This document shows, in pieces, positions 2,737 to 20,444 of a stretch of DNA of 23,536 bases. Under the pieces are notes generated by a model, which ran no database searches, had not been told where the DNA came from, and saw only the letters and a program-made list of their open reading frames with translations. Position 1 is the stretch's first letter; each line of letters begins with the position of its first letter. Location of the stretch: IMG/VR virus record IMGVR_UViG_3300014820_000127, positions 1-23,536 of that record. One strand, 5' to 3'. Source of the DNA: a virus. Both the position numbers and the translations under genes were made by a program.

Positions 2737-3654
2737 ATGGCATTTCAAATCATACAGGGAACAAACGGTTATATTCAACCATCGGTAGCGGCCTTAACAA
2801 CAGGCTGGTCAGTAAGTGGTGGGATAGCCTCGCACGTTGCCTGTAATTTGGGTATTATAATCTCAAAAAATTCATACGGGCTGATTATCGGCCGGCAGTA
2901 CACCTTTATCTATACCGTAAGCGGATTTGTAAGCGGATCTGTTAATATTATTTGCGGGTCGGTAGCTGGAGCGTCACGTACTGCAAATGGCACATATACT
3001 GATACCATCACCTGTACAACTACTGCCAGTGTTGGTTTTTATTCAAACGGGGTACTTTCTGTAAGTAATTTAAAATTTTACGATACTGTGAATGGATTGG
3101 TAAAAGGGGGGACCATTTCTTTCAACTCCAAAACAAAGCAATGGGGTTGTGAATATTCATTCCAGCAGGAGGTTTATATCAAATTCGGCGATAATTTCTT
3201 TTCATTAAAAAATGGCGGGTTGTGGCAGCACAATGTAAACCCGATCAGGAATAACTTCAATGGAGTGCAGTATAATTCACAGATACAGCTTTATGCCAAC
3301 TATGATCCTGCTACTGTTAAAATATGGTACAGTATGCGGGTGCAATCTAACAGGATATGGTTTTGCGCCAATTCCGGGGATATTAATATTGATCCGGTAC
3401 TGGAAAGGCCATTGGGTATGAGTTCACGGTTATTGGCGAACAGGTTTAATAATTACCAGGGAAGTTTCTTTGCTGATTTCCTGATGAATATTCTTGATCC
3501 CCGGTTCAGTTCAGGCAGTCAGGTTAATGCGCTGTTTAATGCCGAACCATTGCGCGGTAGGGTGATGAGCGTATTGCTTACCAATACTGACACAGTTGAG
3601 GTTTTATTGTTTGAGGTTGATTTTAAATCAAGCCCGAGTGCATATACGTATTAA
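2737..3654 (+). CDS. Structural protein with C-terminal stabilization-protein-like domain
   Basis: This 305-aa protein starts at an ATG one base after the stop of the preceding gene. Residues 1-120 form a Ser/Gly/Thr-rich beta-type domain with no recognised family, perhaps carbohydrate-binding or assembly-related. From about residue 125 a second domain begins: FNSKTKQWGCEYSF, then GDNFFSLKNGGLWQHN, then an Asn/Phe-rich segment and VKIWYSMR. That order resembles the C-terminal end of crAss-like stabilization proteins, which usually belongs to the same polypeptide as the upstream part. Here it is a separate gene, so the two genes may be a split form whose products assemble together. No signal peptide or membrane segment is visible. 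The role as a virion appendage component is inferred from context and motif order. Confidence 0.7.
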   Translation: MAFQIIQGTNGYIQPSVAALTTGWSVSGGIASHVACNLGIIISKNSYGLIIGRQYTFIYTVSGFVSGSVNIICGSVAGASRTANGTYTDTITCTTTASVGFYSNGVLSVSNLKFYDTVNGLVKGGTISFNSKTKQWGCEYSFQQEVYIKFGDNFFSLKNGGLWQHNVNPIRNNFNGVQYNSQIQLYANYDPATVKIWYSMRVQSNRIWFCANSGDINIDPVLERPLGMSSRLLANRFNNYQGSFFADFLMNILDPRFSSGSQVNALFNAEPLRGRVMSVLLTNTDTVEVLLFEVDFKSSPSAYTY

Positions 3655-7097: not shown

Positions 7098-10000
7098 ATG
7101 CCGTCCCCTCCTGTTTACACCAAACAGCAATCAGAGTCGGATGCTAAATCAGGGTTAATTCCTATCTATGATCCAAATGCTAATAATATTCTAAACGCAG
7201 ATAAGAATGTAGGCAATATCCCGCAACAAAAGCCGGATAGGGTTGCCGCAGGTGAGCCCTCTTTTTCAGATCATGTAAGAAACGTTGTTATTCCGTTTGA
7301 CGCTGGTGTATTGAACGCCGTTGGTGAAGGGTTACACGCATTAAAACAAGTACATTCAGATATTGGTGATTTGGGTGTTAAGGCTGGCTTTATTGATCCG
7401 GGCCATGAACAAAACATACAGCAGGGCGAAATGGATGCTTTGGCAAAGTATGACCAAGGCGCTAACCTTGGATATAATCAGGATTTTATAAATAATAGTT
7501 CTGCCGCATCTGTAGGTAAAATGATACCCATGCTATTGGGGGGTGAATCACAGGGCGCAAAGATCATGGGGTTACAGGCCGTTGGCAATATGTCAAGAAC
7601 CGTTGATAACCTAAAAGCACAGGGAGTTAAGTTTGATAATGGCACAGACAGGTTGATGATTTATGGGAGCGGCCTTATCAGCTACGCTTTAGGTAAATCA
7701 GTAACCGGCACAATATTAAGTAAAGTAGGGGGACAGCCGCTTGTGAATGAGGTTACCGCTTCATTAGCCGCTGATGCTACAAGATCACTTGCTGATTTAC
7801 CGGCAAATGCTACGGCTGATGATATTTCACAATATTACAGCCAGCAGGCCCTTGCCAAAACATTATCCTTTTCTCAAAAGTTTGGACAGGTTGGTTTGGG
7901 ATATTTAAAAGCATATCCTAATATTGCGCTTGACTTCGCCGGGGCTAATCTTGCCAGGAGTGCTTTAAAGGCAGGTGTTAATGCTTTAAATAATAAGGCA
8001 CCTTTTCCAGGTGTTACCGGTGATGAAATTGTAAAGGATATTTCCTCACCAGTTTACAATGACAGCACACCAGCTAACGGCTCATTAGGGCAATTTGCCT
8101 TAAATATGATAAATACCCCTGCCGCTGGGTTTTCATTGCTACACGCGGCCTCTACGGATGGTATGCTGTACGATAAGTCGCCATATCTTAATCCGGTGGT
8201 AGATGTTTTGCAAAAGGATGGTTCACCACAAACAGTTCAGGCAATAAAAGTTCAGTTAGGTAATATTGGGAAACAAAAAGGATGGAGCGCTACTGATATT
8301 TTACACACACAAGGAAAGGTCGATGAAATCGCAGATGTGGTTAATTCAATACCAAAGGGTTTGCAGCCAAATAAATTCAATGCCGCAGTTAGCTTGATAT
8401 TGGGTAGGCGGCAATTGGAAGGTGTACAGGAAGGTATTGCAAATAATGAATCAGGTATTGATCCGGCAATGCAGCCAAAGGTAGAGGGTTTAAAGAACCT
8501 GGTAACGGCTAAGATTGAGCAGGCTAATGATCAATTGACCGAATTGGCTACAGATAAGTCATTCCGTTATTTTGAGAAGGAAGGTAAGTTTTGGAAGCAG
8601 CAGAACGGCGAGGAACCGATTGAGATAACAAAGGACAGGGCTGATCTTGAAGATTACGAGAAAGAACAGGAAAAGAAACGAGCCGCTCAAATAGCTGCGC
8701 CTGCTGAATCAGTACAGCCTAATCCACCTGCGCCTGTAGCTGCATCACCAGCGGTTGATGCTTCACAGCTTGATGACCTGGATAATGAACTGGATGCGTT
8801 TAAACAGCAGCAGGCACCAGCCCAAACCAACGCTGAAAAGCTGGACGAGGTTGTGGCCGCTAATCCTGATAGAATAATCAAAGCAACTATACCTAAAAAT
8901 GAACAAGCCAAAACAAATACGGAGATATCTGCTCAACAACCGGCAGATGAAACAGCAGGCGCGGGAAAAGCTATTGCGCCAGTTAATAAAACTGTTGAAA
9001 ATAAGCCGGTAGTTGCAGAAACCGAAACAACTGATGTTAATAAATTTTTATCTCCCGATCAATCGATAGAGCCAATAAAAAAGGGGACAGCTAAAATATT
9101 TGATCAGCATGTTGATAAAGACGGGAACAATATTGCATTAATCACTGCAAAAAGTCAAACAGGCCAAGATATTGCTACGATTAGGCAAATTGATAAGAAC
9201 GGACAATTACAGCTTGATGCCAGGGAAAGCGGTTGGAAAGTTCCGTTCAGGGCTAAAGAATATTTTTATACATTAACAAATAAGGAGGAACCAACAAATG
9301 CCATTTCAGAGCAAAGCACAGGAAAAGTGGGCATTCGCGAATCATCAGCCATGGGCGAAGGATTGGGCAGCGAAAACCGATCAGAAGTCCCTGCCGGAGA
9401 AAGTGCAGCCAAAAATGAAGCCGGGCAAGTACAAGGTAATGACCAAAAAGTAGCCGAAAATCCGTACTATGTTTCCATGGGGACTGCCGAAAAACCTGAA
9501 TATGTTCAGGTAGAGGGTGAACCATTGAATTTAAAAAACAACTATAAATTAGATGTTTTTACTCATAAACTTCATGGTACTGACGGATATGGTGTCACAG
9601 AGGGTTCTACCGGACTATCTTTAGGAAAAGGAAAAACCAAAGAAGATGCTATTGAAGCATATAAACGTAATTTATCAAAACTAACGCCAGCAGAGTTGCA
9701 GGCAAAAATAGATCAATCTTATGAATCTGGCCTTAAATCCCCACGAGGAACAATCAAACCCGAAGGTGAAAACACCGATACCGAAAATACTGAAGCTGTT
9801 ATCGCTAAAGCGACAGTTACAGTTGGAAAAGCAAAGGCTACAACAAGAGGAAGTGCCAAGTCAGCAGGGGTCATTAATGAAATAGACGCATCTATTGATG
9901 AAGTTGACAAAGAACTGGCTAATGCCGGGTTACCGCAACCATCAAAAGAATCGCCCTCTGTTATTACGCTTGGTAAAGACCGCACACCTTATACCCATGT

Positions 10001-13000
10001 CGGTACAAATGCCGCAGGAAAGGATTTGTACGAAAATGAGCATGGTGTTCGCGCTAAAGATGAGGGTAATGGCATATTCAGTCAGGAAAAAGTAAATATC
10101 ATCCCGACCCGGCAAGGCGTAACGGTTGGATTACAGCCACGCGAGGATGATTTTAAAACTACCGATGAAAAGGCTCCTGAACCGGAGCAGCCAAAAGAAG
10201 AACCGAAGTCCGAAAAGCAGTCCAAGCGTGCCCAATACGAAGATGAGCTTAAAAAGGCAAAGAAAGCCTTTATGGACACCTTCAATAAGGCCATGTCCGG
10301 CATTAATCCAGAAACCATTGAGAAAGGTATCAAACTACTGGCCATCTACGCTAAAATAGGCATACACGACTTTGGAGAGATAGTTAAAGACCTGTACGAA
10401 GATCTCGGTGAAAAAGCTGGCGAAGTTTTTGATGGATTAAAAGCCGCATACGGAGCATTTGCCACCAGCGCAGATGCTACCGATGAAGAAATAGAGGCCA
10501 TGACCAACCTCAAAGAAGTACGTAAAGCAAAATTTGAGGATTATATAACCAAGAAAGAAAATGGAACAGACAATGAACGACAGCGAGTGGAAGGAAATAC
10601 ACCTTCAATTCCTGCGGGACAATTACCCGGAAAGGCTGCAAATGCTGTACCAGGAAAACAAACTGAAGAAGTACCTGGACGACCTGACAACAACAGCGGT
10701 GAAAATGGAAATGCAGATCATGGAAAACAAACCGTCCCTGAAGTACGACCAGGTGGAAGCGATGATAACGGAAGCCCTGCTGGCACCGGAAGTGGACCTG
10801 ACAGACAGGGAGGACGTTCCAAAAATGCCGGATCAGGAGTACCAAAAAATACTGAAAAGCGTAGTTTAAAGCCTGAAGATCAAAATCACTATATCCGGCA
10901 GGATGATGAAATAGGTGAAGGCTCCCCTATTGAAAAGTTCAACAAAAACATGGATGCCATTTTCCTGCTTAAAAAACTGGAAAGTGAAGACCGTAACCCA
11001 TCCCCGGAAGAAAAGAAGGTACTGGCACAATTTGTCGGGTGGGGGGGCTTGGCTGAATACCTTAAAGGCGGTGAATACTCCAATGAGCAGGCTGTAAATG
11101 CGGCCATAGCCGGGAAGCGCGAAGTGGTGCGCCTTAACCGGTGGGATAATAAAATTTTGGACTTTTCAAAAGACGGGCCCATTAACGCACCTTCTTATTC
11201 CTCATTCAGCGAACTTGCCAATGAGATAAAGAATAAGCTAAATAATTCAGGTTATCCAATCGGTATAGATGAAGTGCGCAAATCATTGGTTAGCTCATTG
11301 TTTACCAATGATGAATTGAATGCGGCTAAAAACTCAACTATCAACGCGAACTATACCGAACGCCAGGTTATCAATAAAATGTGGGAACTGGCAAAGCAGT
11401 TGGGCTTTAAAGGTGGGAATACGCTGGAAACATCTGCCGGTATAGGAAACTTCTTTGGCCTGATGCCGAAAGACCTGCGTGACAGCACAAAGCTAACCGG
11501 CTATGAGCTCGACAGTATCACCGGGCGTATGCTTAAAAAACTTTACCCGGAAGCTAAGATAACCGTGTCAGGTTTTGAAAAATCAAACGTGCAGCCCAAT
11601 AGCCAGGACCTTGTTATCGGTAATGTGCCATTTGCACAGAAAGCGCCATTCGATAAAAACTATCCTGACATCTCCAAATTCAACATGCACAATTACTTTA
11701 TCGGTAAAAGTATGCGGTTGTTAAAGCCTGGCGGTGTTGCAATGGTTATCACATCGAAAAGCACGCTTGATGGCGACCCAAAATTCCGCGAATGGATGTC
11801 AAGCCCGGACGGTGGCAATAGCGTGCTTGTGGGGGCTGTGAGGCTACCAAATAACGCATTTTCAGAGAACGCAGGCACACAGGTTACGACTGATATTGTA
11901 GTATTCCGTAAACGGGATAATAATAAAATTAATCCACTGGAGAATGAGTTTAGGTACACCTATCCAATAGAAGAAAAGCATTTTGATAAAGAGGGCAACC
12001 AGGTACCTATAAATGTAAATGAATATTATCATCAGCATCCTGAAAATATGCTTGGTAAGATGATGACAGCCGATGAAGCTGGATCAGGCGGCTTATATGG
12101 AGGTAAGGATGCCACGTTACATGCGCCATCGGGGTACAACGTTATCTCAAACTTAAATAAAGCTATCAAGTCTTTCCCATCTGATATTATGCAGCAGGAA
12201 CAATCAGCACAGGTTGAAAAGCCTGTTGAGGAAACTGTAGAGGCCATTGACAAAAAAGAGGGCAGCATGTTTGAAAAGGGCGGTAAGATTTATATGGTGA
12301 GGGATGGTGAGGGAGTAGCTAAGTATAATGAAAAGCCTGCCGAGGTAAAAATAGCCAAAGCATATATCGCACTTAAAACCACGTTGCTTGAATTGATCAA
12401 GCAGGAATTATCTCCGGTAAATGCAGAAGCTAATATTGAGGCCCTCCGAAAAGAATTAAATAAAGAATACGATGCTTTTGTTGAAAAGAATAAAGCCCTG
12501 CATAAAAATAGGGCAATAAAGTTTCTTGAAGATGACGTTGACTATCCTTTGGTTCAATCGTTAGAGGAAGCAAAGGATAAATTTGTAGATGATGGTAAGG
12601 GAGGTGGTAAAAAAGTTACCGAAATAAAAAAATCAGCATTATTTAAAAAGCGGATAAACTTTCCCCGTACCGAACCGGATGCAGCAGAAAATATTAAGGA
12701 TGCTATAAATATTTCATTTAATTACAGAAACGGCCTTGACCTGAATTATATTTCAAAACTGTTAGGTCAGCCGGTAGCTGATGTTAAAAATACGTTAATA
12801 AACGAAAACCTTGCCTTTGAAAATCCGAATACAGGTTTATTGGAAAGCCCGGAAGAATACTTGTCTGGCTATGTGCGTGACAAACTGGATCAGGCTAAAG
12901 CGGCTGTTGAAACTGATGAAAAGTTTAATAGGAACGTAGCTGAACTTGAAAAAGTTATTCCAAAAGATATACCAGCATCACTTATTCAATATTCACTTGG

Positions 13001-16000
13001 TTCAACCTGGGTTCCCCCTGCTATTTATGAAGATTTTGTTAAATCACTTTTAGGAGTTGATTCAACAATAAAATATAAAGAGGCCCTTGCTAAATGGGAT
13101 ATTGCTTCAAGTTATGGCCTGCATGATTCAAGGAATAGAACCACCTATGCAGGTGGTGGTGTTGATGGTGTACGGCTGTTAGAAAACGCTTTAAATAACA
13201 TTCAGACAACCGTTAGTATGCCAAAAGCAGACGGCGGTGGTATTGATGCTCATGCAACTGAAGAAGCAAGGGAAAGGCAAGCGCAGATCGAGGATGAGTT
13301 TGTGACTTTCATGCGGTCAAATAAAGAGGCACAGGATATTACCGAACCGATATATAATAAAATCTACAACAATTTTGTTGAGCGAAATTGGCAGACACCT
13401 AATATTGATTATTATCCGGGGCAGTCTAAAACAATCAGTTTATACGATGAGCAAAAGAGATCAGTAGCCAGGGGGCTTGCTGAAAGTACGCTCGGAGCGC
13501 AAGAGGTTGGCTTCGGTAAGAGCTTCGTGCAGCACATCCTGGCCATGGAAGCTAAAAGGCTTGGATTGGCTAAAAAGACGATGGTGGTGGTACAGAAAGC
13601 AACGCTGGGGCAATATGTTACCAGTTTCCGCAGAATGTATCCTACGGCTAAAATACTGGCGCCATCCGAAGCAGATTTCTCCGCAGAGAACAGGGCTAAA
13701 CTTTATGCGAAAATTTCTACGCAGGATTGGGATGCTATCATCATGCCGCATTCTCAATTTGATATGATCCCTGATAAGCCGGAGCGGCGCAAGGCATATA
13801 TTCAGGAAAAAATAGATAATCTTCAAAAATCCATCGACGAGGCTGATAATGGCGCCGATAAAAAAGCTATCGAAAGCAAGCTACGTGACCTTGATCACGA
13901 GATGCGCCTGGTGGATGATCCGGATGCGCTTAAAATGAACGCAAAGGGTGAGTATATTGAAAAGAAGGGTAAAAATGTAAAGAATGAGGCTAAAAAGGCT
14001 TTGAGTACAGAAGCTAAAATGGAAAGGTTGCTAAATCGTCATACTGATAGGTCGGCCTTGCATTTTGAGGACATGGGGATTGATAACTTAATCTTAGACG
14101 AGTGTTTCCCTTACGAAACCCCGGTCTTAACAACCAAAGGTTGGTTACCAATAGGGCTGATAGTTGAGCAAAAATTAGACTTGCAAGTATTAAGCTATAA
14201 TGTATTATCGGGGACGTATGAGACAAAAAGAATAACCAATTGGCTGAGGAAACCAATTGTAAATAAAATGTTGAAAGTGAGGCATAAATACGGTACTTTT
14301 GTATGTACGTCCAACCACCATATATTAACCGAAAATGGATACATCCGAGCAAAAGACCTCACCAATAACGACAGAATTATATTTACCACTTTGCAGGTGG
14401 TGTCAGAAAGTCCCGGTCAAAAAGGAGAAGTATGTATTTTGCAGCACGAGATGTGCGTCTCTATACAAAGCAACCCAAGTCACACAGGACAATCCAACAG
14501 GGAGAAATCTGAATCCAATGCCGATATGCGAATGGTGCAAAATAAATCCAGTAAAAGTACGGTCGAAAAGATTTTGTTCGGGACATTGTGCAGCGAAGTA
14601 TCGGAACAGTTTGCCACATATTCAAGAGCAAAAGAGACTTCACGGAATTTGGTTGGGGAAAAAGTCTTTGGGGATACCAAGTCCAAGTTCGTCAGCCAGA
14701 ATGAAATTAAACAATACAATGAGCAACCCGAAATCTGTAGCAAAAATGAAAGCCAGTATGCAGGGGAAAACATTTTTGTCAAGGGGAGGCAATGGGACTT
14801 TAACCCCGCAGCAAATTACCCTATGCAAAGCATTGGGATTGCCGGAGGACAATATGGAGTGGGGGATAGCGACGAGGCCTGTATGGGGACAATTCCCATC
14901 GTTGCCAAATCATTACAAGGTGGATATTGGTATGCCCGATCTGATGATAGCTATAGAGGTAGACGGGAAAACACACAGGTTGAAGAAATGGAAGTTTTTG
15001 GACAGGCGGAAAACGGAAATTTTGAATGCGTTAGGGTGGAAGGTATTGAGGTTTACGAACGAGCAAGTGACGCAGGATTTGGATTTAGTAATTCGCCAAG
15101 TGACCGAGTTTATGACCTTACAGTTGCCGACAACCATAATTACTTCGCCGCTGGCATCTTAGTATCAAATTGCCATGCCTACAAAAAACTTGGCCTAACC
15201 ACTTCGCTACAAAACATAAAGGGAATTGACCAGACAGCATCAAAGAGGGCTCAATCGCTTTATCTTAAAACCCGGCATATTCAGGAAAAGACAGGCGGTA
15301 AAAATGTAAACTTCTTCACCGGTACCCCGATCACCAATACCATGGCCGAAGTATGGACATGGATGCGGTTTATCAGGCCGGAATTAGTTGAGCGATTAGG
15401 CATAACGCATTTTGACCAGTTTGTAAATACATTTGGCGTTATAGCAAATGATATTGAATTTAATGCTACCGGTTCTTTTAAAAACGTAAACAGGTTCCGT
15501 AGCTTTAAGAATGCTCCTGAACTATTGACCGCCTTCAGGTCGATTGCTCATGTGGTTTTAAAAGATGATGTTAAGGAAATAACCGACAGTGGTTCTGTTC
15601 CTAAATTGTTAAACGGCGAGAAGACTAAAAACATAATCCCGCTTACACCGCCAGTAAAGGAAATTTTAGATAGCATCGTAAGGCAATTAAAAGCCTGGGG
15701 CAATCTATCTTCGCAAGAAAAACGGTTAGGCCGGAACAGAAGTATCCCGGTGGTGCTTTATGGGCACGCTAAGGTTGCCAGTATTGATCCGCGTATGTAC
15801 AACCCGGAGGCGCAGGACCATCCCGACAGTAAGGTTAATAATCTTATTAAGGTAATTGTAAAGAAACACGCAGATACCAAAGCTATTAAAGGTACGCAGA
15901 TGATATTTTCAGATCGTCAAAATAGCATGACAGGCGAACGGCAATATCTTGATGAAAATGAGGAGTTTTTAAATCCGGCATACGGTAAAAAACAGTTTCA

Positions 16001-19000
16001 TCTTTTTGAGGATATGAAGAAGAAGTTAATCGCTGCCGGGATTCCTGAAAATGAGATAGCTATTGCTACCGACCCTAAATATGATAAACAGGAACGTAAA
16101 CAAGCATTGTTTGAAGCGGTAAACGAGGGGTTGGTACGTGTAGTGTTTGGGAGTACCGAAAAAATGGGAGTAGGTGTAAATGCTCAAAAACACTTAGTCG
16201 CCGAACATCATCTTGACGTTCCCAACCGTCCTTCGGATATGGTTCAGAGGGAGGGACGTATTTTAAGGCCTGGTAATGAAAATAAAATAGTTGAGGTTTC
16301 AAACAACGGCATGGAAGGCACCGCAGATGCGATGGCATATAATGTTCTGATGAATAAAGAGAAGTTCATCAAGCAACTTATGACTACCGGGACAGTTGAG
16401 CGCGTTATTGATGATGCGGCCGGCGAAGATGTGCCGACCTTTGATGAAATGATGGCCAGGCTATCCGGGAGCAAATATGCCATTGAAAAAATAAAAACAG
16501 ACGCTAACATAAAAAGAGAAAAAACTAAAAAGGATATTTTCTTTGGCAGGGTTATCCAGGCGAAACGCGACTTACAATCAGCGCAGTCTAATTTGAACCG
16601 CAATAAAGCCGCTTTAAATAAGGACGAGTTTAATGCAGCCAAAGTAGAAAAATCATTCCCTGATGGAGAAATATTGAAAGTAGAGGTTAGTGGCCAGCCG
16701 GAAGCTACCGAAAAGTTCCCTGCTGCTGTTGATGGTTATTTAGACCGGCTGAATAAAAAGTATGAGGAAAGTCCTACCAAATATTCCACTGGTGAAATAA
16801 AGATAAACGGTGTCCCTGTTCAACTGTCATTACATGAGGGATTAGGCGGTTCGGTACTTGAATATACCATACTGGATCTCGGAATAAAAGATCCTTATTA
16901 TACAGGCAAAGGTATAGCCGTTCCGAGTGGTAAGGGTGTTGGCTTGTTATCGTCACTACGTTCAAAATTGGAAGATGTTATTGAAAAGCCTGGTAAGACA
17001 AAAGCGCTTATATCCCAAAACACAAATAATATCGAGCAACTTGGTCATGATATTGATCAAAAATTCGACGATACCCATTTAAAAGAACTTGAAGTACGGT
17101 CTGAAACTTTAAAAGGGTTAATGATTGAAGAAGGGGTTGAAAAAGAAAAAAGCGAAAATGAGCGGCTTCCTGCCATTGATGAAATATTAGACCAAAGCAA
17201 CGTTAAGCCGATACTGGACGCTATGGATAAGCTAAAGGCTAAACCTGGTGGTCAAATGATGGGGTTGCTTGTACCAATACCTCCGGCTGTATGGAACGGG
17301 GCAATTGATATACTGAAGAACGTGGTTAAAGCAACCAACAGTACACAGAAGGCAGTTAGAATAGCAGTAAAGTATATCATTGATAGGGGCGGCGATACTG
17401 CACAGGCAAGCGACTTTGAGCAGAGTATTAATGAAATGCTGGCAAAAACTACTATTCCTCAAAGGCATACTGCGCCGGATACCAACGATACTGATACTGA
17501 AGCCAACCTGGTGAAAGCGGCCATAGAATTGCAGTCAAAAATAAAAGCCAGTTCGCCGGATGAAAAAACATTTGCAAAATTGCCTTTGATTGGCCTAAGC
17601 AAAAAGCAATTGCATAAATACATCGAAGTGGCCGCAGTAATGGCTGCGGACCCGGATGGTGTGTTGAGTTCAGATTTAAGCGGCGCTATTCCTCCGCCAA
17701 AACCTCCGGTTACTCCGCCCGTAACTACCGGGGGGGAAGATGGTGAGCCAAATCGTCGGATACCCAAAAAGGAAAAGATACCAATGGAGTTGATCGATGC
17801 GCCGGAATCAGAAAGCCCGGATGAACCAGATGGTGTTAAAAAGAATTATAGCCTATGGGGCAAGTTAAAAGATGTTCATGTGCGTAACCTTGAGCAACTT
17901 AAATTCTATGGCAAAGATATGACCGATATGACGGCATTCCGCGCTATGCTTCATTTTGCTGCTTCAAAATCAGAAGCTAATGTTAATATTAAACTATCCA
18001 ATGATAAAATAAATAAACTGATCGGCGAAGATGGTTATAAAGTATTGCGCGAAGCATTGATGGAAAGCAGGCTACGCGGTACACGGGAACGGTGGCAAAA
18101 CTTTGCAAGGGATATCAGGGCGATGGATGATACTGAATTATCTGACTTGTTTGACGCTGGCAAATCATCCGCAGTTTATTCTATCATAAAAGACCTGGAA
18201 GGCTACGATGATGACGAGAACCCCGCGCAGAGCATACTGGCATTATTGGATAATCAGGAATATGACGATGCGCGGGATTACCTTGGCCAGATGTTTGATA
18301 ATGCAGCTGACAACGTTTCTTTCTTTGGTAAGTTATCCAACGGGAAAACGTTTGATGAAATGACGCAGCCGGATGGTACCGGTAATTTATCGTTTGTTAA
18401 TCCAAAATATCAGGAATCCTTACAGCAATACAAGCAATTAATCGAAAAACCATTCAGGGAAAGTCACGTTACCAATGAGGGTATATTCAGCGATGCGCTG
18501 GGGCCGCTTGATACTTATTATCCATTGTCACCTGTTGGAAAGGATGCACATAAGGTTGTTATGCCTGCAAAGACAAAATACAATGAGCCCGCCAATATAA
18601 ATAACCATTTTACAAAAGGGAGCGCTGATTTGTATAGTTCAGAAATATCAGCGCTGGCTAAGAAGCTATCAGCGTCATTTAAAACCAATAATAAAGCTGC
18701 CGCAATCAGGGCATTGTATGATGCTGGGTTAGTAGCGCATGTTTCCGGCGATAGCAGCGACAAATATATTTCAATCAATGGCGTAACCTACGAAGCTACC
18801 AAAGTACCTGTAGCGGATGCCAGGACCATTATTACAAACAACCAGATAATTCATACACCAACAAGATATGTGCTTGTGCCTAATTGGCTGTATCAGGAAA
18901 TTAAACCGATAATAGAGGGCGATATTTCAGATCACGACCATTATACCGCGTTCGGGCATATATTGAACGCCACGGTTAACTTTATGCTGGGTGGCCCTGC

Positions 19001-20444
19001 GGAGGCCGTAGGTCACTCATACCGCTTATTATCGGGGATTATCAACTCAATGCCTTATATGCAGGAATGGGCTTATCAGAATGGCATATTAGGTCATGCA
19101 GCCGGATTAGTGCTGAATAACCCTATTGTTAAAATATTCGGAGCCATGGGTAAAGTTTTATTTACCAGTCCATCTTCAGATGAATTTGCACAGGACGTTC
19201 AGCAAATGGCTGCAATGGGTTTAATTCCTGAAAAGACCTGGACACATACCTATAGCCATGAGTTTGCAAAATCAATGGGAGTTGAACCGACACAATTTCC
19301 TTTACCATGGAAGGACCTGCTTGCCGGTAATTTCAAAAAGGTATTTAACAAGGGTAAATTTCTTGACTTTTCTCCATTGCTTTACGGTAAGAACGGGATA
19401 GACCTGAAAGCCAGGGTAACAATGTTTCGGCTGGTACGGGCAATGAATCCGAACGCCACTCCTGAACAGTACGTTAAAATGCTTGCCGATATGGGACAAT
19501 ACACATCGTCATTGCAGGGTAAGTTAGAGAAGTTTATTAAAGAAAATGGGATTGCGCCGTTTGCTACATTCTCCAGGGCATATTATCGCGCTGGGTTAAA
19601 GAACTTGCTTATGATGACACAGATGCCAATTGATAATCCTTTTAGTAAAGGAGGCGGCGGATTTGATGATCCAGGAAAAGCCGGGAAGTTTATTTATTAC
19701 AAGCTGGCGCAAATAATGACAGGTGGTATTTTGGGGCTTATCGGCTACTGGATGCTTATCCATAAAGAAGTAACCGGCAAGTGGCCATCAGACGATCCGC
19801 ATGCAAAACTGTTAAAAGTACCCATTCCTGAAGAATGGAAAAAAGATGCTTTCATTAAAAAGTTTTATTACAACAAGCGCACAAATAGTTGGGATGATTT
19901 CAGTATAGGGTTTACCAATATTGTTGCAGATCGCGGGTTAAAAGCTGTTGGGGCATATAAAGGATATGAAACTGCTAAACTTGGTGGTAATATTGGCCAG
20001 GTTATTGAATCTTCAGAAATACAAGCTGTAAACACCTATTTAAGCCAGTACACGGCTTCCCCGTTGGTTTCCATACCATTTACCGGAACTACCGGAGATG
20101 CACCTTATTTAAGCCGCATACATAACTTCAGGGGACAGGTAGAGCCATCATTCCTGCGTAAGTCAAAAACAGCACCTGCGGGATTGCAGATGCCGGAGAA
20201 TCTTGCCCAGGGTTTATTTGGTATTAATCCCATGTTTGAAATGGCTAATCCAATAAGCGGATCGCTGGATGATGATTACAACCAGAAAGACTATGAATCT
20301 GGTAGGTTTTTAAAATCAATATTGAATATTGCCGCTCCACAATTAATGTCGCCACATGGAAATGATGCTAAGAAAGCTAAATCAATAAAAGCTAATGCGA
20401 ATGCTATTGAAACGACAATAAAAAAAGAGCATGAAAATAAATAA
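7098..20444 (+). CDS. Giant polyvalent phage protein: DarB-like methyltransferase-helicase with intein and virion-type C-terminus
   Basis: This 4448-codon frame starts at ATG 7098; the frame is open back to 6963, so the real start may be upstream. Residues 1-500 contain Gly/Ala-rich hydrophobic stretches and helices, like internal virion proteins. Residues 530-1260 are mostly linkers. A conserved-looking helical unit near 1080-1150 (INPETIEKGIKLLAIYAKIG) resembles domains attached to other polyvalent proteins. Methyltransferase signs: GWGG (1314-1317), ETSAGIGNF (1444-1452), and NVPF (1509-1512) in place of NPPY. Helicase signs: EVGFGKS (2136-2142), DE at 2334-2335 then CH at 2692-2693 after intein removal, TGTP (2741-2744), QREGR (3050-3054). 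A segment with PIPPAVWNGAIDILK lies near 3392. Residues 3600-4448 resemble large ejected virion proteins and include a membrane-like stretch near 4199-4221. Related proteins (P1 DarB, polyvalent proteins) are packaged and protect incoming DNA; that role here is inferred. Mature length without the intein is about 4092 aa. Confidence 0.85.
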   Translation: MPSPPVYTKQQSESDAKSGLIPIYDPNANNILNADKNVGNIPQQKPDRVAAGEPSFSDHVRNVVIPFDAGVLNAVGEGLHALKQVHSDIGDLGVKAGFIDPGHEQNIQQGEMDALAKYDQGANLGYNQDFINNSSAASVGKMIPMLLGGESQGAKIMGLQAVGNMSRTVDNLKAQGVKFDNGTDRLMIYGSGLISYALGKSVTGTILSKVGGQPLVNEVTASLAADATRSLADLPANATADDISQYYSQQALAKTLSFSQKFGQVGLGYLKAYPNIALDFAGANLARSALKAGVNALNNKAPFPGVTGDEIVKDISSPVYNDSTPANGSLGQFALNMINTPAAGFSLLHAASTDGMLYDKSPYLNPVVDVLQKDGSPQTVQAIKVQLGNIGKQKGWSATDILHTQGKVDEIADVVNSIPKGLQPNKFNAAVSLILGRRQLEGVQEGIANNESGIDPAMQPKVEGLKNLVTAKIEQANDQLTELATDKSFRYFEKEGKFWKQQNGEEPIEITKDRADLEDYEKEQEKKRAAQIAAPAESVQPNPPAPVAASPAVDASQLDDLDNELDAFKQQQAPAQTNAEKLDEVVAANPDRIIKATIPKNEQAKTNTEISAQQPADETAGAGKAIAPVNKTVENKPVVAETETTDVNKFLSPDQSIEPIKKGTAKIFDQHVDKDGNNIALITAKSQTGQDIATIRQIDKNGQLQLDARESGWKVPFRAKEYFYTLTNKEEPTNAISEQSTGKVGIRESSAMGEGLGSENRSEVPAGESAAKNEAGQVQGNDQKVAENPYYVSMGTAEKPEYVQVEGEPLNLKNNYKLDVFTHKLHGTDGYGVTEGSTGLSLGKGKTKEDAIEAYKRNLSKLTPAELQAKIDQSYESGLKSPRGTIKPEGENTDTENTEAVIAKATVTVGKAKATTRGSAKSAGVINEIDASIDEVDKELANAGLPQPSKESPSVITLGKDRTPYTHVGTNAAGKDLYENEHGVRAKDEGNGIFSQEKVNIIPTRQGVTVGLQPREDDFKTTDEKAPEPEQPKEEPKSEKQSKRAQYEDELKKAKKAFMDTFNKAMSGINPETIEKGIKLLAIYAKIGIHDFGEIVKDLYEDLGEKAGEVFDGLKAAYGAFATSADATDEEIEAMTNLKEVRKAKFEDYITKKENGTDNERQRVEGNTPSIPAGQLPGKAANAVPGKQTEEVPGRPDNNSGENGNADHGKQTVPEVRPGGSDDNGSPAGTGSGPDRQGGRSKNAGSGVPKNTEKRSLKPEDQNHYIRQDDEIGEGSPIEKFNKNMDAIFLLKKLESEDRNPSPEEKKVLAQFVGWGGLAEYLKGGEYSNEQAVNAAIAGKREVVRLNRWDNKILDFSKDGPINAPSYSSFSELANEIKNKLNNSGYPIGIDEVRKSLVSSLFTNDELNAAKNSTINANYTERQVINKMWELAKQLGFKGGNTLETSAGIGNFFGLMPKDLRDSTKLTGYELDSITGRMLKKLYPEAKITVSGFEKSNVQPNSQDLVIGNVPFAQKAPFDKNYPDISKFNMHNYFIGKSMRLLKPGGVAMVITSKSTLDGDPKFREWMSSPDGGNSVLVGAVRLPNNAFSENAGTQVTTDIVVFRKRDNNKINPLENEFRYTYPIEEKHFDKEGNQVPINVNEYYHQHPENMLGKMMTADEAGSGGLYGGKDATLHAPSGYNVISNLNKAIKSFPSDIMQQEQSAQVEKPVEETVEAIDKKEGSMFEKGGKIYMVRDGEGVAKYNEKPAEVKIAKAYIALKTTLLELIKQELSPVNAEANIEALRKELNKEYDAFVEKNKALHKNRAIKFLEDDVDYPLVQSLEEAKDKFVDDGKGGGKKVTEIKKSALFKKRINFPRTEPDAAENIKDAINISFNYRNGLDLNYISKLLGQPVADVKNTLINENLAFENPNTGLLESPEEYLSGYVRDKLDQAKAAVETDEKFNRNVAELEKVIPKDIPASLIQYSLGSTWVPPAIYEDFVKSLLGVDSTIKYKEALAKWDIASSYGLHDSRNRTTYAGGGVDGVRLLENALNNIQTTVSMPKADGGGIDAHATEEARERQAQIEDEFVTFMRSNKEAQDITEPIYNKIYNNFVERNWQTPNIDYYPGQSKTISLYDEQKRSVARGLAESTLGAQEVGFGKSFVQHILAMEAKRLGLAKKTMVVVQKATLGQYVTSFRRMYPTAKILAPSEADFSAENRAKLYAKISTQDWDAIIMPHSQFDMIPDKPERRKAYIQEKIDNLQKSIDEADNGADKKAIESKLRDLDHEMRLVDDPDALKMNAKGEYIEKKGKNVKNEAKKALSTEAKMERLLNRHTDRSALHFEDMGIDNLILDECFPYETPVLTTKGWLPIGLIVEQKLDLQVLSYNVLSGTYETKRITNWLRKPIVNKMLKVRHKYGTFVCTSNHHILTENGYIRAKDLTNNDRIIFTTLQVVSESPGQKGEVCILQHEMCVSIQSNPSHTGQSNREKSESNADMRMVQNKSSKSTVEKILFGTLCSEVSEQFATYSRAKETSRNLVGEKVFGDTKSKFVSQNEIKQYNEQPEICSKNESQYAGENIFVKGRQWDFNPAANYPMQSIGIAGGQYGVGDSDEACMGTIPIVAKSLQGGYWYARSDDSYRGRRENTQVEEMEVFGQAENGNFECVRVEGIEVYERASDAGFGFSNSPSDRVYDLTVADNHNYFAAGILVSNCHAYKKLGLTTSLQNIKGIDQTASKRAQSLYLKTRHIQEKTGGKNVNFFTGTPITNTMAEVWTWMRFIRPELVERLGITHFDQFVNTFGVIANDIEFNATGSFKNVNRFRSFKNAPELLTAFRSIAHVVLKDDVKEITDSGSVPKLLNGEKTKNIIPLTPPVKEILDSIVRQLKAWGNLSSQEKRLGRNRSIPVVLYGHAKVASIDPRMYNPEAQDHPDSKVNNLIKVIVKKHADTKAIKGTQMIFSDRQNSMTGERQYLDENEEFLNPAYGKKQFHLFEDMKKKLIAAGIPENEIAIATDPKYDKQERKQALFEAVNEGLVRVVFGSTEKMGVGVNAQKHLVAEHHLDVPNRPSDMVQREGRILRPGNENKIVEVSNNGMEGTADAMAYNVLMNKEKFIKQLMTTGTVERVIDDAAGEDVPTFDEMMARLSGSKYAIEKIKTDANIKREKTKKDIFFGRVIQAKRDLQSAQSNLNRNKAALNKDEFNAAKVEKSFPDGEILKVEVSGQPEATEKFPAAVDGYLDRLNKKYEESPTKYSTGEIKINGVPVQLSLHEGLGGSVLEYTILDLGIKDPYYTGKGIAVPSGKGVGLLSSLRSKLEDVIEKPGKTKALISQNTNNIEQLGHDIDQKFDDTHLKELEVRSETLKGLMIEEGVEKEKSENERLPAIDEILDQSNVKPILDAMDKLKAKPGGQMMGLLVPIPPAVWNGAIDILKNVVKATNSTQKAVRIAVKYIIDRGGDTAQASDFEQSINEMLAKTTIPQRHTAPDTNDTDTEANLVKAAIELQSKIKASSPDEKTFAKLPLIGLSKKQLHKYIEVAAVMAADPDGVLSSDLSGAIPPPKPPVTPPVTTGGEDGEPNRRIPKKEKIPMELIDAPESESPDEPDGVKKNYSLWGKLKDVHVRNLEQLKFYGKDMTDMTAFRAMLHFAASKSEANVNIKLSNDKINKLIGEDGYKVLREALMESRLRGTRERWQNFARDIRAMDDTELSDLFDAGKSSAVYSIIKDLEGYDDDENPAQSILALLDNQEYDDARDYLGQMFDNAADNVSFFGKLSNGKTFDEMTQPDGTGNLSFVNPKYQESLQQYKQLIEKPFRESHVTNEGIFSDALGPLDTYYPLSPVGKDAHKVVMPAKTKYNEPANINNHFTKGSADLYSSEISALAKKLSASFKTNNKAAAIRALYDAGLVAHVSGDSSDKYISINGVTYEATKVPVADARTIITNNQIIHTPTRYVLVPNWLYQEIKPIIEGDISDHDHYTAFGHILNATVNFMLGGPAEAVGHSYRLLSGIINSMPYMQEWAYQNGILGHAAGLVLNNPIVKIFGAMGKVLFTSPSSDEFAQDVQQMAAMGLIPEKTWTHTYSHEFAKSMGVEPTQFPLPWKDLLAGNFKKVFNKGKFLDFSPLLYGKNGIDLKARVTMFRLVRAMNPNATPEQYVKMLADMGQYTSSLQGKLEKFIKENGIAPFATFSRAYYRAGLKNLLMMTQMPIDNPFSKGGGGFDDPGKAGKFIYYKLAQIMTGGILGLIGYWMLIHKEVTGKWPSDDPHAKLLKVPIPEEWKKDAFIKKFYYNKRTNSWDDFSIGFTNIVADRGLKAVGAYKGYETAKLGGNIGQVIESSEIQAVNTYLSQYTASPLVSIPFTGTTGDAPYLSRIHNFRGQVEPSFLRKSKTAPAGLQMPENLAQGLFGINPMFEMANPISGSLDDDYNQKDYESGRFLKSILNIAAPQLMSPHGNDAKKAKSIKANANAIETTIKKEHENK
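9282..9288 (+). promoter_or_regulatory. Strong internal Shine-Dalgarno for nested ATG at 9298
   Basis: AAGGAGG sits nine bases before the ATG at 9298, inside the giant gene. It is one of only a few perfect Shine-Dalgarno sites I found in the window. It matches a start in the +1 frame rather than any start in the giant frame. Confidence 0.75.
9298..9453 (+). CDS. Nested 51-aa phage protein in the +1 frame of the giant gene
   Basis: ATG at 9298 to TAG at 9451-9453 encodes 51 aa starting MPFQSKAQEKWAFANHQPW and continuing AKDWAAKTDQKSLPEKV. The start is supported by AAGGAGG nine bases upstream. The pattern MPF.SKAQ..W.FA...P..AK.WA..T....LPEKV is one I recognise as a recurrent small protein of phages and mobile elements, function unknown. 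It is basic and helical. The giant frame across the same bases (residues 734-786) reads as Ala/Glu/Gly/Ser/Asn-rich linker, as expected if it merely reads through this gene. A chance match of motif, start and ribosome site together is unlikely. Confidence 0.72.
   Translation: MPFQSKAQEKWAFANHQPWAKDWAAKTDQKSLPEKVQPKMKPGKYKVMTKK
10561..10869 (+). CDS. Nested 102-aa helical protein (TnpV-like?) in the +1 frame of the giant gene
   Basis: ATG at 10561 (or ATG at 10573, giving MNDSEWKEI) to TAA at 10867-10869. The product is acidic and strongly helical: LQFLRDNYPERLQMLYQENK, then KLKKYLDDLTTTAVKMEM, then YDQVEAMITEALLAPEVDL. This resembles small TnpV-like or similar helical proteins found beside methyltransferase-helicase genes of phages and conjugative elements; the family name is uncertain. 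Across the same bases the giant frame (residues 1155-1258) reads as a Gly/Pro/Asn/Ser-rich linker. The methyltransferase module of the giant protein begins immediately after the nested stop. The upstream ribosome site is weak (AAGAAAGAAA), which is common in Bacteroidetes. Unlike the giant frame here, this frame looks protein-like, so I regard it as a real overlapping or recently overprinted gene. Confidence 0.62.
   Translation: MEQTMNDSEWKEIHLQFLRDNYPERLQMLYQENKLKKYLDDLTTTAVKMEMQIMENKPSLKYDQVEAMITEALLAPEVDLTDREDVPKMPDQEYQKILKSVV
14103..15170 (+). mobile_element. Intein (356 aa) inserted in helicase motif II (DE^CH)
   Basis: Removing these bases joins LILDE to CHAYKKLGL and restores a DECH helicase box. 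The N-terminal splicing block is CFPYETPVLTTKGWLPIG with catalytic Cys at giant residue 2336. Block B is TSNHHILTENGYIRAKDL with the TxxH signature. The C-terminal blocks are VYDLTVADNHNYFAAGI and LVSN, ending in Asn 2691, followed by Cys 2692 as the +1 nucleophile. The penultimate residue is Ser instead of the usual His; inteins with such changes are known, but splicing may be slower. The middle of about 245 aa lacks LAGLIDADG or HNH motifs in this frame and looks like an out-of-frame reading of the nested endonuclease. Insertion at an invariant ATPase motif is typical of inteins, because imprecise loss destroys the host protein. Confidence 0.93.
14335..15162 (+). CDS. Homing endonuclease, Vsr/DUF559-like (EDxHD type), nested out of frame in the intein
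   Basis: This 275-aa frame lies entirely within the intein but is shifted +1. Residues 20-40 and 65-85 are two zinc-binding repeats with identical spacing (C-x2-C-x12-C-x3-C): CRWCQK..FCSTRC and CEWCKI..FCSGHC. Residues 108-145 (SSSARMKLNNTMSN, SVAKMKASMQGK) resemble NUMOD3-type DNA-binding repeats. The nuclease core is at 195-245: DLMIAIEVDGKTHRLKKW, then LDRRKTEILNALGWKVLRF. Candidate catalytic residues are E208/D210, H214 and D223, as in Vsr-like EDxHD homing enzymes such as I-Bth0305I. ATG 14335 falls in the block B coding sequence. The TAG at 15160-15162 lies eight bases before the intein end, so the last 15 or so residues share bases with blocks F and G. There is no clear Shine-Dalgarno. 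Its expected role is to cut intein-free alleles at the DECH site. Confidence 0.85.
   Translation: MDTSEQKTSPITTELYLPLCRWCQKVPVKKEKYVFCSTRCASLYKATQVTQDNPTGRNLNPMPICEWCKINPVKVRSKRFCSGHCAAKYRNSLPHIQEQKRLHGIWLGKKSLGIPSPSSSARMKLNNTMSNPKSVAKMKASMQGKTFLSRGGNGTLTPQQITLCKALGLPEDNMEWGIATRPVWGQFPSLPNHYKVDIGMPDLMIAIEVDGKTHRLKKWKFLDRRKTEILNALGWKVLRFTNEQVTQDLDLVIRQVTEFMTLQLPTTIITSPLAS

Follow-up and report, generated by a model that had tools for sequence, protein, structure and literature searches.

A phage intein inserted in a helicase motif is very probably a mobile element that carries its homing endonuclease as a gene of its own, read in the +1 frame over the linker between the two splicing halves, with splicing, cleavage and homing all predicted from sequence and structural models. 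The element lies in a 23,536-nucleotide stretch of viral DNA (IMG/VR record IMGVR_UViG_3300014820_000127), the whole of which is referred to as the window. Judged by the genomes compared, the nested design is real and widespread, with more than 100 distinct phage and bacterial sequences having it.

An intein in the Walker B motif of a giant phage gene

The host gene product (Table 1) matches an Eco57I methylase (8.6e-6) and, weakly, Helicase_C and SNF2. The insertion point, between the DE and the CH of DECH, corresponds to motif II (Walker B) of the SNF2-like helicase domain, for which the domain matches are weak. All 356 frame-0 codons of the insertion are free of stops within the host ORF. 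They run from Cys1 (14103) to a terminal Asn356 (15168-15170), followed by a +1 extein Cys (15171), and they contain both N- and C-terminal splicing blocks, block B being T69..H72 (14307-14318). The residue before the terminal Asn is Ser, where His is usual. Frame 0 matches Pfam Intein_splicing at 3.3e-10, exceeding the curated cut-off, as well as the NCBIfam models of the intein N-terminal region (TIGR01445, 3.7e-7) and C-terminal region (TIGR01443, 1.4e-6). In the AlphaFold model, frame 0 takes up a HINT fold, its middle being disordered, and matches the Mtu RecA intein over 136 residues (Z 20.7) and the NrdJ-1 split intein (Z 20.1). Frame 0 is an intein by these sequence and model features, and self-splicing is predicted. 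Elsewhere in the window, virion structural protein matches are found at 126-2732, and the nearby stretch 2737-3651 weakly matches the crAssvirus muzzle C-terminal domain (0.016).

The +1 frame encodes a predicted EDxHD endonuclease

Most of the +1 gene sits on the frame-0 linker, and its TAG (15160-15162) is located inside the block G Leu-Val codons (TTA GTA) of the intein. The product matches DUF559 (9.9e-12, residues 193-259) and contains two CxxC...CxxxC repeats. Across 50 homologues, Cys65 and Cys68 of the second repeat are invariant and Cys81 and Cys85 nearly so, while E208, D210, G211, H214 and D223 are invariant; E208, D210, H214 and D223 are presumably the catalytic residues of the EDxHD motif. 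The AlphaFold model (pLDDT 84.9) resembles 3hrl (Z 11.7), I-Bth0305I (3r3p; Z 10.8, rmsd 2.6, 93 residues) and the Vsr endonuclease (1cw0; Z 9.5, 98 residues), with alignments of about 90-98 residues. The +1 product is predicted from its sequence and model to be an EDxHD (Vsr-like) homing endonuclease with zinc fingers, which would cleave DNA site-specifically. The initial annotation had placed an intein in frame 0 and, with start and stop codons both inside it, a nuclease gene with zinc repeats and a Vsr-like core in +1; the ORFs bear this out, as does a profile search of both frames, in which Intein_splicing was found in frame 0 and DUF559 in +1. A single base, at position 14716, differs between the window (A) and the near-identical contig L002 (C). 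With C, residue 128 of the nuclease is the family-consensus Pro instead of Thr, and the frame-0 residue is Ser instead of Tyr.

Table 1. Features of the host gene, the intein and the nested nuclease gene, in window coordinates
Feature	Position	Strand	Description	Basis
Host (extein) gene	7098-20444	+	4448-aa phage methylase/SNF2-like helicase protein	Largest ORF of the window
Intein	14103-15170	+	Frame 0, 356 aa	Pfam, TIGR models, HINT fold
Intein N-terminal splicing half	14103-14402	+	Residues 1-100, blocks A and B	pLDDT about 95
Frame-0 linker	14403-15002	+	Residues 101-300, stop-free, mostly predicted disordered	pLDDT mostly <50
Intein C-terminal splicing half	15021-15170	+	Residues 307-356, first strand 307-318, blocks F/G	Profiles, AlphaFold
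Nuclease gene	14335-15162	+	+1 frame, 275 aa, ATG 14335 to TAG	DUF559; AlphaFold
First zinc-finger-like repeat	14389-14457	+	CxxC...CxxxC	Sequence
Second zinc-finger-like repeat	14524-14592	+	CxxC...CxxxC	Sequence, homologue alignment
Catalytic core	14911-15111	+	EDxHD/Vsr-like	DUF559, conservation, structure match
Doubly constrained core	15034-15054	+	GWKVLRF in +1; RVEGIEV in frame 0, one base earlier	Conservation peak

The nested arrangement in other phages and genomes

A tblastn search of 50,697 phage records with the nuclease as query matched 40, in which the gene is labeled as a helicase, P-loop protein, coil-containing protein or hypothetical protein and the nuclease is unannotated. Six of these records were opened, from four Vibrio phages including CP-T1, Pseudomonas phage MR14 and Corynebacterium phage phi673; all six have a frame-0 intein between DE and CHH and the nuclease in +1. 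A wider set came from scanning viral contigs and prokaryote genomes with patterns of the nuclease frame only, and the loci were then classed with HMMs of the intein ends built from 69 nested loci. For close relatives, single-sequence patterns found only the near-identical contig, and alignment-based patterns were needed. The resulting sample of at least 209 loci, among the matches listed, is not exhaustive. Of the 209 listed loci classified, 166 are nested in +1 and none in +2; the others comprise 8 split loci, 2 in-frame archaeal loci, 4 with a C-terminal end only and 29 without intein ends, a class (FREE) that includes many distant, ordinary DUF559 proteins from outside the nuclease family. 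Independently of these HMMs, Pfam recognized Intein_splicing in 48 out of 50 frame-0 sequences that were sampled, and all 50 nuclease sequences matched DUF559. Host genes of the nested loci include SF2/SNF2 helicases and DnaX-like clamp loaders, the insertion boundaries are nearly always DE, then C...(H/S)N for the intein, then C, and the cellular genomes with nested copies include Ktedonobacter, Akkermansia and a Thermodesulfobacteriota MAG. A plasmid search yielded the DUF559 domain alone and nothing further.

Different states of the same helicase site were found in Vibrio phages whose helicases are 80-93% similar: the site is empty in 1.251.O, holds a 150-aa intein without nuclease in K389, and holds the nested intein and nuclease in 1.088.O. 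PS65A.1 (L215) and 13VV501A (L216) have mini-inteins at the motif II site together with a second intein at Walker A, and natural nuclease-free inteins at the motif II site span 143-150 aa. This patchwork of empty, mini and filled sites is the pattern expected from homing, a putative activity of the element. The mini-inteins in Vibrio phages would be either precursors or products of homing endonuclease gene loss. The initial annotation had pointed to homologous phages with an empty site or a mini-intein as a comparison; both occur in the Vibrio phages. No empty site was found in close relatives of the window intein, the search giving only L220, a 34%-identical host homologue that reads DEAH. 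The annotation had also envisaged that a free-standing homing gene invaded a mini-intein, and as a single event in the window phage this is unsupported: nesting is old and common to a family found in phages of many hosts, and it most likely reached the window phage as a unit. The second intein at Walker A is short in 13VV501A; PS65A.1 and L039 have long, in-frame versions. That of L039 gives LAGLIDADG matches, and the translation of that of PS65A.1, read by eye, resembles an intein of the ordinary kind, with a LAGLIDADG-type domain in frame.

Selection on the host frame

In 69 nested genes of less than 85% identity, nuclease codons were swapped for synonyms at the usage of the host gene. No host-frame stop was present within the nuclease, against 1030.6 expected, and the other forward frame held 1386 stops against 974.6 expected. 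In a second set, the 127 non-redundant nested genes among the listed loci, synonyms were weighted by the G+C of each locus, and host-frame stops across the nuclease again numbered 0, against 1895.3 expected. Free-standing relatives, used as a control, had 170 stops against 162.9 expected (n = 11), and split relatives 92 against 105.7 (n = 4). A third-position T before codons beginning AA, AG or GA, which equals a host-frame stop, occurs at 0 of 6168 positions in nested genes, as compared to 5536 of 16166 (34%) before other codons in the same genes. The stop counts and the missing third-position T indicate that selection keeps frame 0 open, in agreement with the initial reading that frame 0 is held stop-free across the nuclease. 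Openness by chance was rejected on these stop statistics, with their internal and external controls.

Conservation of frame 0 was compared with a null in which the nuclease protein was kept, synonymous codons were shuffled and frame-0 stops were disallowed, using 110 nested genes of less than 60% identity. The mean z beyond this null was 0.6-1.0 over nuclease codons 1-231, 8.8 at codons 232-245 and 5.6 at codons 246-269, so that excess conservation is limited to the 3′ end of the nuclease gene. At its peak, the RVEGIEV of the intein falls in the first strand of the C-terminal half in the AlphaFold model (residues 307-318). The nuclease stop occupies few recurrent positions in the family, 8-74 nt before the intein end. 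As had been proposed from the window alone, the middle of the linker in frame 0 appears mostly unconstrained, both by conservation and in the model. Functional overlap had been expected at both ends of the nuclease gene. At the 5′ end none was seen, and block B lies upstream of the nuclease ATG; at the 3′ end overlap is present, starting at about 15030 in the nuclease catalytic core and so earlier than the 15105 originally given.

A functional domain in the frame-0 middle would be another reason for its openness, and a few isolated middle columns do reach z 5-7, with AlphaFold placing a helix at residues 152-183 (pLDDT about 65). Against this stand the mean z of 0.6-1.0 over the middle, the mostly disordered prediction, profile searches that gave no convincing family match there, and the natural 143-150 aa inteins at the same site that do without this stretch, and such a domain is very unlikely. 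The chance that an in-frame nuclease was displaced by misassembly or by a pair of compensating indels is negligible. L002 differs from the window by one substitution and by no indel, the phase is identical in independently sequenced Vibrio, Pseudomonas and Corynebacterium phages, and each of the 127 non-redundant genes has 0 host-frame stops. A reading of the arrangement as sequencing error was rejected because independent phage genomes share the phase. Compensating indels and an unconserved +1 frame, the two outcomes that the initial annotation had named as speaking against nesting, were both absent, many independent phage genomes having the same phase and the +1 frame being conserved among homologues.

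Predicted expression and activity of the nuclease

A Shine-Dalgarno core (AGGA, GGAG or GAGG) lies at the right distance from the first nuclease ATG in 50 of 124 genes, against 10.3% at control positions, a fourfold enrichment (p 2.6e-18); by the same motif test, the ATG of the window itself lacks such a core. In 86 of 127 genes, a stop closes the nuclease frame at most 30 nt before its ATG. This enrichment and the close upstream stops favor internal initiation over frameshifting. A programmed +1 ribosomal frameshift would make a fusion of helicase, intein N-terminal half and nuclease, and the +1 phase would then be mechanistic. All nested cases among the listed loci are indeed +1 and none is +2, which common descent explains equally well, and a frameshift is distinctly unlikely in view of the enriched Shine-Dalgarno cores, the upstream stops, which leave little room for a slip site, and a conserved nuclease start (M in 96 of 97 aligned). 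It is also unlikely that the nuclease lacks homing activity and is carried along as a passenger, the intein persisting by descent alone, as the presumed catalytic residues are invariant in the 50 homologues, empty, mini and filled sites are patchily distributed among similar helicases, and the nuclease frame is intact in 127 of 127 genes.

Under the preferred reading, that of a mobile intein with an independent +1 nuclease gene, ribosomes in frame 0 would translate the host gene without interruption. Both intein ends would form the HINT domain, with self-excision restoring the helicase, and the roughly 200-residue middle would be a stop-free, mostly disordered loop. A separate start at the internal ATG just past block B would yield the 275-residue zinc-finger/EDxHD endonuclease. 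This nuclease would be expected to cut the intein-free Walker B site in other phages, and repair would then copy the intein and nuclease jointly (homing).

Fractured, free-standing and in-frame relatives

In the fractured loci L040, L076, L091 and L094, the intein halves have the same phase, and frame 0 is filled with stops across the +1 nuclease; in L040 and L076, which were read in detail, the N-terminal half stops just after the nuclease start. Fractured relatives are also listed as L040, L076 and L091-L095. The fractured loci form one clade (support 99) that adjoins L082, itself nested, and falls among the other nested loci of the tree, a quick tree with many weakly supported branches, a weak backbone and long branches for L193, L086, L205 and L038. 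This one clade and the shared phase suggest, at the level of sequence comparison, an evolutionary direction from nested to split. Along such a route, a stop would arise in the frame-0 filler and a start in the C-terminal half, splitting the gene around the nuclease. There is about an even chance that the nested loci represent a large, so far unannotated class of mobile inteins with a +1 overlapping nuclease, in which a single piece of DNA encodes both a core strand of the nuclease and a strand of the intein, and that the nested state leads to natural split inteins in phages.

Other layouts were also observed. In L074 (3926-4525) and L108 (3358-3996), a free-standing nuclease gene immediately precedes a helicase gene that has nothing inserted at motif II, and the L074 helicase looks frameshifted at that site. 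In the Thaumarchaeota loci L193 (4302-6425) and L199 (4266-6398), a distant zinc-finger/DUF559 nuclease is in frame with an intein in a radical-SAM-like gene, an ordinary bifunctional layout.

Comparison with known systems

Fractured genes, attributed to Dassa 2009 (a paper cited in PMC10448857), reportedly consist of a split intein whose halves flank a gene for an EDxHD (Vsr-like) endonuclease. The window resembles them in having an EDxHD-type nuclease between intein halves, but its host gene is unsplit and the nuclease overlaps a contiguous intein; the layout of two ORFs with a nuclease between them is found in L040, L076, L091 and L094. The catalytic-core fold of the nuclease is shared with I-Bth0305I and Vsr, at 18-23% identity and in another gene layout.

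Canonical bifunctional inteins combine HINT with an in-frame homing endonuclease domain (PMC6801210). Like them, the window has a HINT domain in a conserved motif, interrupted by a homing endonuclease between its halves. Unlike them, its endonuclease is a separate gene in +1 rather than in the frame of the splicing domain, and frame 0 contributes only a stop-free loop. In the ShiLan domain and the Pacc40 insertion, both located in phage methylase genes, an HNH endonuclease is encoded out of frame and no splicing domain is detectable (PMC11855218). The window is similar in that an out-of-frame endonuclease lies within a stop-free insertion of a phage gene, but it has a full HINT intein and an EDxHD (DUF559) rather than an HNH nuclease. 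A preprint entitled as a study of actinobacteriophage inteins of non-canonical architecture (bioRxiv 10.1101/2025.01.02.630785) is cited for overlapping frames in PMC11855218. Its title and this citation suggest that it may deal with phage inteins whose nucleases are out of frame and so anticipate the idea, which is the main reservation about novelty. A literature text search, whose coverage does not extend to this preprint, found no intein with an out-of-frame EDxHD nuclease.

Implications

In the textbook arrangement, an intein and its homing endonuclease share one frame; in the nested class, spread over phages and genomes of many hosts, overlapping genes do the same job. Only a helicase is annotated in the phage records examined, and the nuclease is overlooked. 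As natural inteins, HINT halves joined by a 200-residue loop that is probably dispensable would be useful for protein engineering. Nested inteins are a natural and deeply sampled case of dual coding, and they offer a concrete, testable route by which a contiguous intein may become a split one.
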